From positions 1,191,501 through 1,255,500 of the forward strand of contig NZ_CP054476.1 in assembly GCF_013341275.1 (NCBI RefSeq): a DNA stretch of 64,000 bases, given 5' to 3'. Below are positions 7,137-13,418 of this stretch, piece after piece. Position 1 is the stretch's first letter; every line of letters begins with the position of its first letter. The notes under the pieces are model-generated. The model saw nothing but the letters and a program-made list of their open reading frames with translations, ran no database searches and was not told the origin of the DNA. Source of the DNA: Methyloligella sp. GL2 (GTDB lineage Bacteria; Pseudomonadota; Alphaproteobacteria; Rhizobiales; Methyloligellaceae). A program made the position numbers and the translations under genes.

Positions 7137-8768
7137 ATGAGGAAAGCAATCGGAAGGGCAGCGGTGCCGGGGCAGACGCAGCCGAGTTCGGCACCCGGAG
7201 CGGATGAGAACGATCCGAACGCCGCGAAAGGGACCGAGGGGCAAGACGGCGCGCAAGGCGAAAGTGCGCAAGGCGAGCCCGCGGGCGAGGCCGAGCAGCA
7301 TGGCGATATCGCCAGCCTGCTGGAACATCTGACCAAGGAAGTGCGCGCCTGGGATGACAATCTCTGGGCCGATGCACCGGTAGATGAGGAGAGCGGGGGC
7401 GAAGACCGGCACACGCCTTATGAAGATGAGAGGCTGGAGCCGGAGCCAGTTTCGGAGCGGGCGATATCGCTCTTCGCGCCTGCGCCGGACGATGGAAAAC
7501 GCGACGCGAAATTCTGCGTGGATGGGGACGCGGCCAAGGACGCAAAGCCGCAAGGGTTCACACGGCATATTACCAAATGGCGGGTGATCAAATCCGCCGT
7601 GGCGCTGGCTGCGCTGATTGCGCTTGGCTGGGAGCCGCTGGAGCGTCTGGTGCAGGTCACCAGCGCCGAGGCGACGGTCAATGCGCGGCTGATCACCTTG
7701 CGCTCGCCGATTGACGGCAAGCTGGTGCTGTCGCACGGACCGATGCAGGTGGGCTCGGAGGTCACCGCCGACGAGCTGCTCGCCAAGGTCGAGAACCCGC
7801 GGGCCGACCGCAGCCGGCTGAACGATCTTCGCCGCAACCTCGCCGATCTGAAGTTCGATGTCGCGAGTCTTGCGACCCGCATCGAACAGTTGGAGAGCCA
7901 TCGCGACGAGCTGAAGGTGCAGCGCGATGCCTTCCAGGATGGGCGCGTCAAGCAGCTTGAAGCCGAAGCGGAGGAGTACAGCTCCGATATCATTTCGGCG
8001 GAAGCGGCGCATAAGGAGGCGTCTATCGCCCTGCAACGCGCCAAGAAGCTGCGCGAGCGCGGCTATCAGACCGAGGCGGTGCTCGACGAAGCGGTGCGCG
8101 ACGAGCAGATGGCTTCCTCCAAGGTCAATTCGCTGAAGCACAAGCTGACCGGCACGAAGGTCGAGCTGGAGGCCGCCAAGAAAGGGCTCTTCGTCGGCGA
8201 CAGCTATAACGATATCCCGCGCACTGCGCAGCGGGTCGACGAGATTACGGCCGAGCTGGTCGGGCTGAAGGCCGATCTCAGCGCCAAGCGCGGGCGCATG
8301 CAAATGCTGCGAAGCGAGCTCGCCCTCGAGCAGAAGCATTACGATGATATGGCCTCGGCCGATATCGCGGTGCCGGTGGGTGGGCGCGTCTGGGAGGTGC
8401 TGACCGCCAATCACGAAGTGGTCAGCCACGGACAGCCGCTGTTCAAGGTGCTGGATTGTGCCGGTGCGCTGGTGACGGCGTCGGTGAGCGAAGCCACCTA
8501 TAACGAGCTGAAGCTCGGCCAGGATACGAGCTTCTATCTGCGCGGCGGTTCGGCGGCACTGCCCGGCCGGGTGGTGGCGCTGAACGGCTTGGCGGATGTG
8601 TCGTCCAACCTTGCGCTGGGGCAGGGCATCTTCAAGAGCGAGCCCTATCACGTGGCCGTGGCGGTGCCGGGGCTCGCCGATCAGCCGGATTGTTACTTCG
8701 GCCGCACCGGCAAGGTAACCTTCGACACCGCTTCGCCTGGCCAGGTGATGGCAGCGACCCAGCCATGA
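7137..8768 (+). CDS. HlyD-like membrane-fusion protein of a polysaccharide synthase module
   Basis: A roughly 543-residue protein. Residues 1-145 are polar, acidic and low-complexity (cytoplasmic). One transmembrane helix follows at about 152-166. Next comes a lipoyl/barrel-sandwich half (VNARLITLRSPIDGKLV, 181-197), a long coiled coil with two arms (about 225-375), the return barrel strand (ADIAVPVGGRVWEV) and a beta-barrel end. This is the HlyD/EmrA-type periplasmic adaptor architecture. The stop overlaps the ATG of the synthase gene (ATGA), so the two are translationally coupled. I prefer the ATG at 7137, preceded by GGGGA, over the GTG at 7128. By analogy with rhizobial BgsB-BgsA mixed-linkage glucan synthesis it probably guides nascent polysaccharide across the periplasm; that analogy is inference. 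Confidence 0.75.
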   Translation: MRKAIGRAAVPGQTQPSSAPGADENDPNAAKGTEGQDGAQGESAQGEPAGEAEQHGDIASLLEHLTKEVRAWDDNLWADAPVDEESGGEDRHTPYEDERLEPEPVSERAISLFAPAPDDGKRDAKFCVDGDAAKDAKPQGFTRHITKWRVIKSAVALAALIALGWEPLERLVQVTSAEATVNARLITLRSPIDGKLVLSHGPMQVGSEVTADELLAKVENPRADRSRLNDLRRNLADLKFDVASLATRIEQLESHRDELKVQRDAFQDGRVKQLEAEAEEYSSDIISAEAAHKEASIALQRAKKLRERGYQTEAVLDEAVRDEQMASSKVNSLKHKLTGTKVELEAAKKGLFVGDSYNDIPRTAQRVDEITAELVGLKADLSAKRGRMQMLRSELALEQKHYDDMASADIAVPVGGRVWEVLTANHEVVSHGQPLFKVLDCAGALVTASVSEATYNELKLGQDTSFYLRGGSAALPGRVVALNGLADVSSNLALGQGIFKSEPYHVAVAVPGLADQPDCYFGRTGKVTFDTASPGQVMAATQP

Positions 8769-10735
8769 CTTTCGCATCGGGGACGACGTATTGGGAGGCG
8801 CTGGTTCCGGGCCTCCTGATCGTCCTGCTTGCCGTCACGGTGTTGCCTTGGGTCAACCGGCGGAACGATCTGGCGCGGACTGTGGCGATCGCGGTCTGCC
8901 TGTTCTTCACCTGGCGCTACATGATCTGGCGGGTGACCGACACTTTGCCGGCAATGGGGCTGACGGCGGACTTCATCACCGGGGTGATCTTCACCGCGGT
9001 GGAGTTTGCGGCGGTGTTCGGCGGCTCGCTGTCGCTGATCTTCCTGACGCGGACGCTGAACCGCAGCAAAGAAGTCGAGGCCAATCTGCCGTGGCTCAAG
9101 GCGCAATCGGAGCAGCCGCTCGTCGATGTGCTGATCTGCACCGCGAACGAGGACCTTCCCATTCTGGAGCGCACCATTATCGGCGCGCTTTCAATCGATT
9201 ATTCCAATTACCGTCTATGGGTTTGCGACGATGGGCGGCGCCCCTGGCTGCAGGCGCTATGCGAGGAGTTCGGCTGCGGCTACATCATCCGACCCGACAA
9301 TACCGACGCAAAAGCGGGCAATATCAACAACGCGCTGAAGCATCTGGGAACGCTCGAGGAGACGCCGGATTTCGTCTGCATTCTGGATGCGGATTTCGTG
9401 CCGAAGCGGGATCTGCTGACCCGCACCGTCGCGCTGACCAAGGTGAGCGATGTCGGCGTGGTGCAGACGCCGCAGCATTTCTACAATCCCGATCCGATCC
9501 AGACCAATCTGTCGCTGACCCGGGTGTGGCCCGACGAGCAGCGCTATTTCTTCGATGTGGTGCTGCCGTCGAAAGATGCCTGGGGCGGGGCGTTCTGCTG
9601 CGGCACCTCCTCGCTGATCCGCTATGCGCCGTTGGCGAAGATCGGCGGCATGCCGACGGATTCGGTGACGGAAGATTATCTGCTCTCCTTGCGCTTACGG
9701 GAGATCGGGTTCCGCACCGTCTATCTCAATGAGATCCTGTCGCTGGGCCTCGCGCCGGAGGGGCTGAAGGATTATATCGGCCAGCGCAGCCGCTGGGCGC
9801 TCGGCTTCATTCAGATCTGCCGCAGCAGCAGCGGGCCGCTCCGCCTCAACAATGGACTCCCCTTCGTCGACCGGGTGATGCTTGTGGAGACCTGGCTGCA
9901 TTGGTCTGCGAGCTATTTATGCCGCTTGCTCGGGCTGATCGTGCCGGCGCTGTATCTGCTTCTCAACGTGCAGGCAATCTTCGCCAATGTCGCCGATGCG
10001 GTGTCTTACGTGTTCCCGCATTTCGCTGCGCAGATCGCGGTGACGATCTGGATCTCGCGGGGACGGCTGCTGCCGATACTCTCCGATTTGAGCCAAGTGC
10101 TTTGCGCCGATGCCATCGTGAAATCGGTGGCCATCGGCTTGTTCGGCGGCAAGCAGCAGAAATTCAAGGTGACGGCCAAGGGATACGACCGCAGCAGCCG
10201 GGTGGTCCAGTGGCCGCTGCTGCGCGCCTTTCTGTTCTACCTTGGCTTCACCTTCGCCGGCATCTTGTGGGCTTTCGTGCTGAATGACAGCCGGTCGCTG
10301 GCTGATGCCGCCGGCATGGCGCTGTTCTGGAGCTGGTACAACATCCTGATTCTGGTCTTGGCCTGTCTGGTGACGGTGGAAGCCTCGCAGCGGCGCAGGG
10401 GCGAGCGCTTCAAGGCGGATGGGATGGCCCAGGTGATCGTCGGGGATCGGGGCTTCGACTATCCGGCACACGATATCTCGGTGAGCGGTATGCGGCTGAA
10501 TGGGCCGATGCCGGCACCTGTCGGCACCAAGGTGAAGATTCGCTACGAGGATCTGGCGCTGGAGGCGCATATCGCCGTCGATTACGACAACGCCTTCGCC
10601 GTGCAGTTCGCCACCTCGCCGGGGGCGCGGATTGCGCTGATCCGGCATATCTATTGCGGCCGGTTTCACCTGCATGTCCGGGATATTCGCCCGGCTGCCG
10701 TTGCCGGCGCGCTCGCCTCGCGGCTGCTGCGCTGA
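8765..10735 (+). CDS. BcsA-like processive family-2 glycosyltransferase with C-terminal PilZ domain
   Basis: A 656-residue inner-membrane synthase. Two to three N-terminal helices (to about 95) precede a GT2 catalytic domain (about 118-350) with all processive motifs: DD at 155-156, DAD at 208-210, QTP at 234-236, TED at 302-304 and QRSRW at 340-344. Further helices span about 375-540, and then a PilZ domain carries the c-di-GMP motifs RRRGER (543-548) and DISVSG (570-575). UDP-sugar polymerisation and export gated by c-di-GMP is the family function. The product could be cellulose, mixed-linkage beta-glucan or another polymer. The partner is an HlyD-like protein instead of BcsB, and no bcsB, bcsZ or bcsC lies nearby, so this is not a standard cellulose operon. 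It starts at the ATG overlapping the upstream stop. Confidence 0.85.
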   Translation: MTFASGTTYWEALVPGLLIVLLAVTVLPWVNRRNDLARTVAIAVCLFFTWRYMIWRVTDTLPAMGLTADFITGVIFTAVEFAAVFGGSLSLIFLTRTLNRSKEVEANLPWLKAQSEQPLVDVLICTANEDLPILERTIIGALSIDYSNYRLWVCDDGRRPWLQALCEEFGCGYIIRPDNTDAKAGNINNALKHLGTLEETPDFVCILDADFVPKRDLLTRTVALTKVSDVGVVQTPQHFYNPDPIQTNLSLTRVWPDEQRYFFDVVLPSKDAWGGAFCCGTSSLIRYAPLAKIGGMPTDSVTEDYLLSLRLREIGFRTVYLNEILSLGLAPEGLKDYIGQRSRWALGFIQICRSSSGPLRLNNGLPFVDRVMLVETWLHWSASYLCRLLGLIVPALYLLLNVQAIFANVADAVSYVFPHFAAQIAVTIWISRGRLLPILSDLSQVLCADAIVKSVAIGLFGGKQQKFKVTAKGYDRSSRVVQWPLLRAFLFYLGFTFAGILWAFVLNDSRSLADAAGMALFWSWYNILILVLACLVTVEASQRRRGERFKADGMAQVIVGDRGFDYPAHDISVSGMRLNGPMPAPVGTKVKIRYEDLALEAHIAVDYDNAFAVQFATSPGARIALIRHIYCGRFHLHVRDIRPAAVAGALASRLLR

Positions 10736-11260: not shown

Positions 11261-12118
11261 TTAGGTGCCGCTCGGCTCCGAATGGGCCTCGAACACCGTC
11301 TCGTCGGTGTCGGTCATCTTCACGGTGAGGACGTTCTCCTCGCCACGGCCGAAAGTGAAGCGGAAGTTCGGATTGGTGGAGATCGCCGATCCGGCCCGCA
11401 TGTTGAAGACCAGCTCGCCGTCGCGTTTCACATCGGCGTTGTAGATGAAGCGGGCAGCGATGAAGTCGCCGGTGTTCGGGTTGATCTGCAAGCCGCTGAA
11501 ATTCGGATGTTTCAGCATCACCATGCCCTCCCAGATCGGGGTGGAGGGAAGCGCCGGCTCGAAGGTCTTGACGATCATCTTGCCGAGCCCGTCGGTGAGG
11601 GTGGTCGGGTCCTTGGCGTTCATCGCGGCGCAGCCGCCGGCGGCGGCGATGAACTTGGTGGTCATGTGAAGCTTGCCGTCCTCCGTCTCCACCACTGCCC
11701 GGATATGGGAGAAGGTGTCGATGCGGGCGCGGGTGGTGAAGCGGCGTTCGCCGCCGGTGCCGGCGGCCGGGCCGAAGGTCAGCTTGGCGAGAACCGGCAT
11801 CGGATTCTTGTCGATGACGATGGTCAGAGACTTGATCGGCTCCTTCACCTCCGGCGGCACGCGCACGGTGATCGGCACTAGGGCGGCGTCCTGCACCACC
11901 TGGGGCGTATCGAGAATGACGACGCCGTCCTCCTCGATCACGTCGCGATTGTCGAAGACGGTGCGCTTGAGGCCGGGCCAATCGTCGATATCGGCCTTGG
12001 CCGGCGCGGGCAGGGCGGCGATGGCGGCAAGCGCGAAGGCACCGCACAAGAGCGCGCTCGCCCCGCGCTTCAGACCGGCGAGACTTACGCTAGGGCTGCT
12101 TGTTTTTGCATGCAGCAT
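11261..12118 (-). CDS. Quinoprotein-associated SoxYZ-like carrier protein
   Basis: A 285-residue exported protein with a signal peptide (hydrophobic 20-38, cleavage near AKA-DI at 42). The first mature half resembles SoxY and contains a GGC motif at residues 161-163. Cys163 corresponds to the thiol that carries substrate on the SoxY swinging arm, although here it is internal rather than at the C-terminus. The second half (about 190-285) resembles SoxZ, so the gene is a SoxY-SoxZ fusion. This matches the family named quinoprotein dehydrogenase-associated SoxYZ-like carrier. It lies 57 bp after a metallo-beta-lactamase-fold gene on the same strand. It probably acts with a PQQ enzyme in the periplasm, but none is encoded here and its cargo is unknown. 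Confidence 0.85.
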   Translation of the reverse strand: MLHAKTSSPSVSLAGLKRGASALLCGAFALAAIAALPAPAKADIDDWPGLKRTVFDNRDVIEEDGVVILDTPQVVQDAALVPITVRVPPEVKEPIKSLTIVIDKNPMPVLAKLTFGPAAGTGGERRFTTRARIDTFSHIRAVVETEDGKLHMTTKFIAAAGGCAAMNAKDPTTLTDGLGKMIVKTFEPALPSTPIWEGMVMLKHPNFSGLQINPNTGDFIAARFIYNADVKRDGELVFNMRAGSAISTNPNFRFTFGRGEENVLTVKMTDTDETVFEAHSEPSGT

Positions 12119-12175
12119 GATGAGGGTCCTCCCTTAGGTCTCTACTTTTAAGTGTAACACAGCTCGCTTTGCTCT

Positions 12176-13237
12176 TTATTCCCATTCGAGCTCGGCATAG
12201 GCGGCACTGACATTCCTTGCGTTGTAGTCGTCGAACAGCTTCCAAGCATGCTCCTGGCGGTATCCTGCGATCTTGGTCGCCTCGCCTAAGGGCAGGTTAT
12301 CTTTGATCAATTTACGGACGTCGTCGGCGACGGTCTGGAGATATAGCTGCTCAGGCTTGAGTGCGCCGGGAAGCTGCATGGCATGAGGGCCGTGGCCGGG
12401 GACGACGCGGGCGGCTTTGCGTTTTTCGAAATCGTCGAGCAGGGCAAGCCATCCGGTGATGGAGCCGTCCAGGGTTGGGATGTGCACCGAGAAGAGAAGG
12501 TCGCCGAGGAACAGCGTATCGGTGCCGGTATCGGTGACGATCAGGTCGTTATTGGTGTGTGCGGTGGCTTGCGGCTCCAGGATCAGCGCGCGGCCGCCGA
12601 GATCGAGCTCAGTCTTCTTCTCCACGCCAAGATCGGGAAGGATCACCTCGCTGCCTTGAAAGGCCGGACCGATCATCCGCTCATTGGCGGTGAGATAGGC
12701 ATCGGTGCGGACTTGCAGCGCGTTCTTCAGATTGTGATGGCCGACGAAGGTCGGGGCGTCCTGCTTGAAGGCGACATTGCCGAACACATGGTCGGGATGC
12801 ATGTGGGTGTTGATCACGTAGCGGATCGGTTTCGACGTCACATCCGCGATGGATTTGCGCAAGGCTTCGCCGCAGATCGCGCTGCAGGAGGTATCGATCA
12901 CCGCCACCGCCTCGTCGCCGACCACGAAGGCGCAATTGGCCATGTCGCCCATATTCTCCGGCGACTGCATGGCGTATTGCCCCTGATGCACGAAGACGCC
13001 GGGGGCGATCTCCTGCACCGCCATGTCGGGCTTGGCCTCTGGTTCGTCCTTGGCGAAGGCCGGGACGGAGCGGAGCAGCGGCAGAAAGGCAAGGGCGCCG
13101 AGCCCGCGCAGGAAGCTCTGCCGGGTGATCGGCCGCTGTTGTTGCGCGTGCGCGTCAAGCGGCGCATCCGGGACGGCGAGATTTGCGCGCGCCAAGCAAG
13201 ACGGGCATTGGATCTTGCCGCAGCTATCCTCCCGCAT
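12176..13237 (-). CDS. Quinoprotein relay system zinc metallohydrolase (MBL fold)
   Basis: About 353 residues with a metallo-beta-lactamase fold. The metal motif HMHPDH is at residues 145-150, with later HTNNDL, a D in FLGDLLF and the PGHGP histidine completing a typical set. A hydrophobic signal segment at about 45-62 suggests export. It is preceded by an unusual cysteine cluster (C6, C11, C14: CGKIQCPSC). The ATG at 13237 is chosen because GGAGG lies 8 bases upstream; two other in-frame ATGs (13243, 13252) are too close to or upstream of that site. Together with the SoxYZ-like protein it forms the quinoprotein relay pair known from PQQ-enzyme clusters. The likely role is hydrolytic release from the carrier thiol; the substrate is unknown. 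Confidence 0.8.
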   Translation of the reverse strand: MREDSCGKIQCPSCLARANLAVPDAPLDAHAQQQRPITRQSFLRGLGALAFLPLLRSVPAFAKDEPEAKPDMAVQEIAPGVFVHQGQYAMQSPENMGDMANCAFVVGDEAVAVIDTSCSAICGEALRKSIADVTSKPIRYVINTHMHPDHVFGNVAFKQDAPTFVGHHNLKNALQVRTDAYLTANERMIGPAFQGSEVILPDLGVEKKTELDLGGRALILEPQATAHTNNDLIVTDTGTDTLFLGDLLFSVHIPTLDGSITGWLALLDDFEKRKAARVVPGHGPHAMQLPGALKPEQLYLQTVADDVRKLIKDNLPLGEATKIAGYRQEHAWKLFDDYNARNVSAAYAELEWE

Positions 13238-13418
13238 CGGCATTTCCTCCATAAATAGGCTCTGATGGCCTGGGCCGGTCTTGCTGCCAGCCTCTCAAAT
13301 CAGCATGGCACGGGGCGGGGAGGTTTGTCTACCTACCAGATGGTAGGGTGTGCGGCCTGAATGCTTCCTTGGGCAGTGCCGGATGCCCGTGCCGGCGCGC
13401 TTCTCTGTTTCCGATTGC

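Follow-up and report, generated by a model that had tools for sequence, protein, structure and literature searches.

What polymer is made, and by which route does it leave the cell, when a PilZ-bearing glucan synthase is encoded next to a membrane-fusion protein (MFP) rather than BcsB? The question is raised by a gene pair in a 64,000-nucleotide stretch of the Methyloligella sp. GL2 genome (GCF_013341275.1, contig NZ_CP054476.1, positions 1,191,501 to 1,255,500). This whole stretch is called the window, and its own numbering is used below; both genes and all their features lie on the plus strand. The first gene (7137-8768) encodes an HlyD/EmrA-type MFP of 543 amino acids (P0001; Pfam HlyD_3, 6.5e-13; closest solved folds EmrA, EmrAB-TolC and MacA), with an alternative GTG start 9 bases upstream of 7137. 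The second (8765-10735) encodes a glycosyltransferase family 2 (GT2) processive beta-glucan synthase of 656 amino acids with a C-terminal PilZ domain (P0002), as assigned from Pfam, NCBIfam and an AlphaFold2 (AF2) model. The two overlap by 4 bp (8765-8768), where an ATGA joins the stop of the first to the start of the second, an arrangement of translational coupling. An earlier note on this DNA had described just such a coupled pair, and the reading frames, the overlap, the Pfam matches and a full set of motifs bear it out. From the analyses below we somewhat favor the view that the pair makes and exports a beta-glucan with (1,3) links: the synthase would be derepressed by cyclic di-GMP (c-di-GMP), and the polymer would leave by way of the MFP, itself bound to TolC.

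The synthase has the hallmarks of BcsA. In Pfam it matches GT2 families, at best with 1.6e-18, and also passes the cut-off for PilZ (PF07238) with 6.2e-7; its closest relatives of solved structure by sequence are the BcsA proteins of E. coli and Rhodobacter (RsBcsA). The AF2 model (pLDDT 87) ends in a six-stranded barrel and gives TM-scores of 0.83-0.88 to the best BcsA structures. Conservation was assessed in an alignment of 27 members of the window synthase's own clade (locus L030 included), mostly 49-72% identical to it. Invariant in this alignment are the catalytic DDG (D155, D156; 9227-9235) and DAD (residues 208-210; 9386-9394), the TED (302-304; 9668-9676), Q340, R343 and W344 of the QxxRW (340-344; 9782-9796) and the gating loop FxVTxK, here FKVTAK (467-472; 10163-10180). 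The PilZ domain spans residues 542-629 (10388-10651), with the modelled barrel strands at 554-615. It follows the last transmembrane helix, as in BcsA, and carries both c-di-GMP motifs in 27/27 members: RxxxR (R544, R548; 544-548; 10394-10408), aligned with RsBcsA R580/R584, and DxSxxG, here DISVSG (D570, S572, G575; 570-575; 10472-10489). The equivalent of RsBcsA E371 is also retained.

The Bcs partners, in contrast, are missing. The earlier note had seen no BcsB, BcsC or BcsZ nearby, and this holds for the complete genome (one contig of 3.23 Mb, completeness estimated at 93%), in which BcsB (PF03170), BcsC (PF05420) and GH8/BcsZ (PF01270) had no match and no second CelA-like, cellulose-type synthase was present. 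Eleven GGDEF domains are encoded in the genome, none of them inside the window. At all clade loci for which the DNA upstream of the synthase gene is available, the MFP gene directly precedes it, so the pairing is not due to chance. Further, when the clade's 22 other loci were compared, no gene apart from those for the MFP and the synthase recurred throughout, which leaves no conserved third gene; the pair is therefore a two-gene unit.

To place the synthase, a tree was built from the GT core only (residues 37-540 of the window protein), and the PilZ columns were left out so that they would not drive the topology. Most BcsA rows came from loci where bcsB or another bcs gene lies alongside; 4hg6 was added. 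The BgsA references come from R. etli and from S. meliloti, with the pSymB copy of strain 1021 among them, and carry 8/8 residues studied in PMC5567048 at their published numbers. For CrdS, loci of Agrobacterium and Phyllobacterium that have an MFP alongside the synthase were used; 12/12 CrdS residues named in PMC6821405 fall at their published numbers, and the identification rests on this register of residues rather than on a named record. The tree separates 40 MFP-partnered rows (the window clade, CrdS, BgsA and a sister group of Agrobacterium-pAt type) from 23 BcsA rows with support of 100/99. The window clade itself has 23 rows (100/99). With the root placed on BcsA by choice, not inferred, BgsA branches first, then CrdS (99/94), then L029 and L030 (95/85), then the sister group and lastly the window clade. 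The BgsA and CrdS clades are each supported at 100/100 with the window synthase outside both, and CrdS lies between BgsA and the window clade. The main clades reappear in the MFP tree, where the window MFP and BgsB are again apart, but the deep order there is less sure and the branches are long. The MFP and synthase are thus co-inherited. The earlier note had asked for a phylogeny of the GT domain and had named grouping with cellulose synthases that have a bcsB elsewhere in the genome as the outcome that would tell against it; this was looked for and not found. A cellulose synthase with a distant bcsB is ruled out by the whole-genome searches and the GT-core tree, and simple orthology with BgsBA by the same tree and the PilZ motifs.

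How the PilZ motifs are distributed over this tree suggests something of their history. RxxxR and DxSxxG are found in all window-clade members, in L029, L030 and L033 and in most BcsA; BgsA, CrdS and the sister-group members other than L033 lack them. A single clade of all PilZ-motif synthases was rejected by the AU test (p 3.5e-7). The simplest reading would be that PilZ was present at the base and that its motifs decayed separately in BgsA, CrdS and the sister group. The window clade is probably best called the PilZ-intact branch of the CrdS/BgsA assemblage. This agrees with the earlier note, which had described BgsA as lacking a classical PilZ (its PilZ motifs are indeed lacking; PMC5567048, PMC6821405), had likened the architecture to BgsBA while suspecting a distinct system, and had offered an ancestral version as one explanation; the upstream MFP, the separate clades and the AU result fit each of these points. 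The sister group (L034, annotated 'cellulose synthase', L033 and L138-L140) shares the gene pair, D at positions 406 and 477 and Q at 480 (RsBcsA numbering) with the window clade, whereas its PilZ motifs are degenerate except in Azospirillum (L033). In these sister loci (L034, L033, L138, L139, L140) a gene for a cache-domain protein usually lies alongside, often convergent, and the Sulfitobacter operon includes a GH8 gene (L139:1577-2560), which hints at (1,4) links in that case. L029, from a contig binned as Solirubrobacterales (Actinomycetota), holds a PilZ-bearing HlyD-GT2 pair that groups with an alphaproteobacterial metagenome-assembled genome; transfer or misbinning is likely.

Linkage was approached through the residues that separate BcsA, CrdS and BgsA, among them the Arg that CrdS, BgsA and plant CslF6 have at the RsBcsA E299 position (PMC6821405). 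All 40 MFP-partnered rows have Gln for H276, Gln for N298, Arg for E299 and Phe for Y302 (RsBcsA numbering, as for the positions below). The BcsA rows have E, S, N, D or H at 299, and Arg is in none among the residues listed. The deletion after the DD motif that is reported for CrdS and BgsA (PMC6821405) is also present in the window synthase. Given its place beside CrdS and BgsA rather than among the cellulose synthases, the window enzyme would be expected to form (1,3) links, although identity of its product with that of either CrdS or BgsA cannot be predicted confidently. The clade also has a signature of its own, with D at 406, E/D at 412, D at 477 and Q at 480, which is partly common to the sister group and is unlike BcsA, CrdS and BgsA.

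The C-terminal tail offers a further tie to BgsA. In profile comparisons, the tail of the window clade matched BcsA PilZ tails (E 6e-13), the CrdS tail (E 4e-8) and the BgsA tail (hhalign E 1.4e-7; controls were 0.29 for reversed BgsA and 0.0013 for the best of 200 column shuffles), whereas the BcsA tail found no match in the BgsA tail. A hidden Markov model of the clade tail also retrieved the BgsA proteins, with matches to all BgsA tails, among 4882 non-clade open reading frames (ORFs), through the last ~40 BgsA residues. The common segment covers about residues 612-656 of the window protein (10598-10735). The last strand and the helices that follow it (at least the last ~40 residues) are shown to be homologous; for the rest of the barrel, position and length would suggest as much. 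BgsA Y633 and R656, which are required for activity and not for c-di-GMP binding, align with Y630 and R653 here, each conserved in 26/27 members. This match is consistent with homology and does not count as independent evidence, since these residues helped to set the alignment. The counterpart of another BgsA activity residue, R605, is Arg in 25/27 clade members and Val in the window protein (codon 605, 10577-10579). Taken together, these comparisons suggest that the c-di-GMP domain of BgsA, which has been described as unlike PilZ, descends from this PilZ-bearing tail.

The MFP indicates a possible route of export. Its AF2 model has a disordered N-terminus of ~145 residues (7-56 and 86-146 mostly at pLDDT <50), a predicted inner-membrane helix at residues 147-172 (7575-7652) and a long periplasmic alpha-hairpin at residues 226-406 (7812-8354; helices 226-307, 313-348 and 359-406, pLDDT mostly >90). 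The sequence at the hairpin tip, RAKKLRERGYQT, contains the motif R301-xxx-L305-xxx-G309-xx-T312 (8037-8072) at the modelled turn. It fits RxxxLxxxxxx[S/T], the RLS/RLT motif that MacA, AcrA and HlyD use to bind TolC (PMC3391258). The R is conserved in 27/27 members, the L and G309 in 26/27 each and the S/T in 20/27, and one TolC-family protein was found above cut-off in the genome. Because the RLS/RLT motif is present at the modelled hairpin turn, we propose a synthase-MFP-TolC conduit as a model of export. The same conduit has been proposed, without test, for cyanobacterial XcsAB-TolC (PMC12430437).

Based on these observations, the pair may work as follows. The GT2 enzyme would make a linear beta-glucan from UDP-glucose and pass it across the membrane by a channel of its own. 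As long as c-di-GMP is absent, a BcsA-like salt bridge (E332-R544 here) would keep the gating loop shut, and binding of c-di-GMP to the PilZ motifs would free the loop. The emerging chain would then enter a periplasmic conduit formed by the MFP, whose long hairpin is predicted to dock on the one TolC-type outer-membrane channel that the genome encodes. In the product, beta-(1,3) links would most likely be present, either as the sole linkage or as part of a mixture. Several points weigh against this model. The linkage rests on the tree position and a few residues, and positions 412 and 480 differ from CrdS, BgsA and BcsA alike, so another product is possible. The S/T at the hairpin tip is retained in 20/27 members only, and docking on TolC through the RLS/RLT motif has been demonstrated for efflux and type I adaptors only. 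XcsA-type enzymes of the same architecture make cellulose (PMC12430437), and a biochemical test of any clade member was not found in the literature.

The pair could instead be a functional BgsBA that makes the same alternating (1,3)/(1,4) glucan and differs only in keeping its c-di-GMP site in a PilZ domain. The BgsBA systems of S. meliloti and R. etli (PMC5567048, PMC9495663) likewise have an MFP gene directly upstream of the GT2 synthase and no Bcs partners. The synthases share 34-39% identity, Arg at 299 and the homologous tail end, with two activity residues kept in the window protein (the equivalents of Y633 and R656) and three in most of the clade. On the other hand, BgsA lacks RxxxR/DxSxxG and binds c-di-GMP through R599/H615, the channel entrance differs at 412 (E/D versus P) and 480 (Q versus G), and with CrdS placed between them the window clade is by position no closer to BgsA than to the curdlan synthase. 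We regard this alternative as possible but doubtful. The adjacent branch of CrdS raises the thought of a curdlan-type (1,3)-glucan synthase without crdC, and Lys at 309, as in CrdS (K270) and in contrast to Arg in BgsA, points the same way. The CrdASC system of Agrobacterium (PMC6821405, PMC4327974) has a GT2 core with the same Arg at 299 and the same deletion after the DD motif, and CrdA, alongside CrdS, is of the MFP type. Nevertheless, the crdA-crdS-crdC set is not matched at the clade loci, which have no conserved CrdC-like third gene, CrdS is without PilZ motifs, and its H374 and H442 are E and Q in the window synthase; a curdlan-type enzyme is thus an unlikely explanation.

A cellulose synthase served by an HlyD-type exporter, along the lines of the XcsAB-TolC model for cyanobacteria, has also to be considered. 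PMC12430437 (citing Maeda 2018) describes a PilZ synthase with an HlyD-like MFP, XcsA and XcsB, no BcsB and a proposed exit through TolC, and the NCBIfam CelA model matches most of the length of the window synthase (1.8e-119). The CelA score of 400 bits is, however, far under the cut-off of 699, and XcsAB has the endoglucanase XcsC and makes cellulose. An XcsA-like protein of cyanophage S-CBWM1, a long-branched stand-in for authentic XcsA, falls outside the window/CrdS/BgsA branch (99/97), and its residue at 299 is Asp instead of Arg. In this Synechococcus phage (L137:2634-5986) the MFP gene, annotated 'multidrug resistance efflux pump membrane protein', overlaps a PilZ-type cellulose synthase gene by 4 bp, an XcsBA-like pair. 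We consider cellulose an unlikely product of the window synthase. BcsA-BcsB itself is similar in fold, catalytic motifs, PilZ domain, gating loop and salt-bridge residues, and differs in its clade, its linkage-associated residues and the BcsB, BcsC and BcsZ that the window genome lacks. The PilZ-HlyD pairing already has a cyanobacterial example (PMC12430437), and BgsBA shows that a glucan synthase can be partnered by an MFP. The earlier note's pairing of the synthase with an HlyD-like protein in place of BcsB is upheld; this architecture has precedents in XcsA-XcsB and in the MFP-type CrdA beside CrdS. Lastly, the pair could be inactive or decaying, as its patchy distribution (10/249 sampled genomes of the order) and broken relatives (L027/L082, L043) might suggest. 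With an intact window copy, and all catalytic and PilZ residues invariant among clade members that are mostly 49-72% identical, this is highly improbable.

Going beyond the c-di-GMP-gated (1,3)-glucan model, one may speculate that the clade's linkage is distinct from those of cellulose, curdlan and the alternating S. meliloti glucan, being set by the 406/412/477/480 signature under a canonical PilZ switch. The clade would then preserve the state before BgsA and CrdS lost their PilZ motifs, and the BgsA c-di-GMP domain would be a remodelled PilZ-bearing tail. We consider this possible but rather unlikely.

The window clade is patchily scattered through Hyphomicrobiales. Synthase matches of at least 47% identity over >500 residues were found in the 10 sampled genomes mentioned above, the window genome included, and the MFP in 5/30 genomes of its own family. 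In Methyloligella halotolerans, the closest relative with a species name, the synthase is 72% identical to the window protein. Copies on Bradyrhizobium and Phyllobacterium plasmids suggest horizontal transfer. No relatives were found in the viral-contig collection searched, and those in a phage collection were limited to Salmonella-labelled records with bcsA and the cyanophage S-CBWM1 pair. On Bradyrhizobium diazoefficiens pNK6a (L043:2620-3423), a C-terminal remnant of a window-type synthase adjoins a transposase gene, with an MFP-like ORF on the opposite strand. In Methyloceanibacter superfactus (L027:5755-7973 and L082) the synthase lies in two frames with a break near PilZ, reflecting decay or assembly error. 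A description of the clade was not found in the open-access literature searched. In the window, the pair is preceded by genes for an Na+/H+ antiporter and a universal stress protein and followed by genes for a SoxYZ-like carrier and a quinoprotein-relay hydrolase. The latter two (11261-13252, minus strand), a SoxYZ-like fused carrier adjoining a quinoprotein relay zinc metallohydrolase 2, together with a c-type-cytochrome-like ORF at 67-1170, recall a PQQ-dehydrogenase relay.

In conclusion, this locus presents a compact two-gene unit for glucan synthesis and export, usually annotated as 'cellulose synthase' or 'glycosyltransferase' and found here in a genome without Bcs partners. Its synthase joins the c-di-GMP switch of the cellulose synthases with channel residues of (1,3)-linking enzymes, and therefore could serve to separate the residues that set linkage from those that govern gating. 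The clade also connects BgsA to its PilZ-bearing relatives, and suggests how the ligand site of a regulatory domain may have been altered while the residues for activation were retained.

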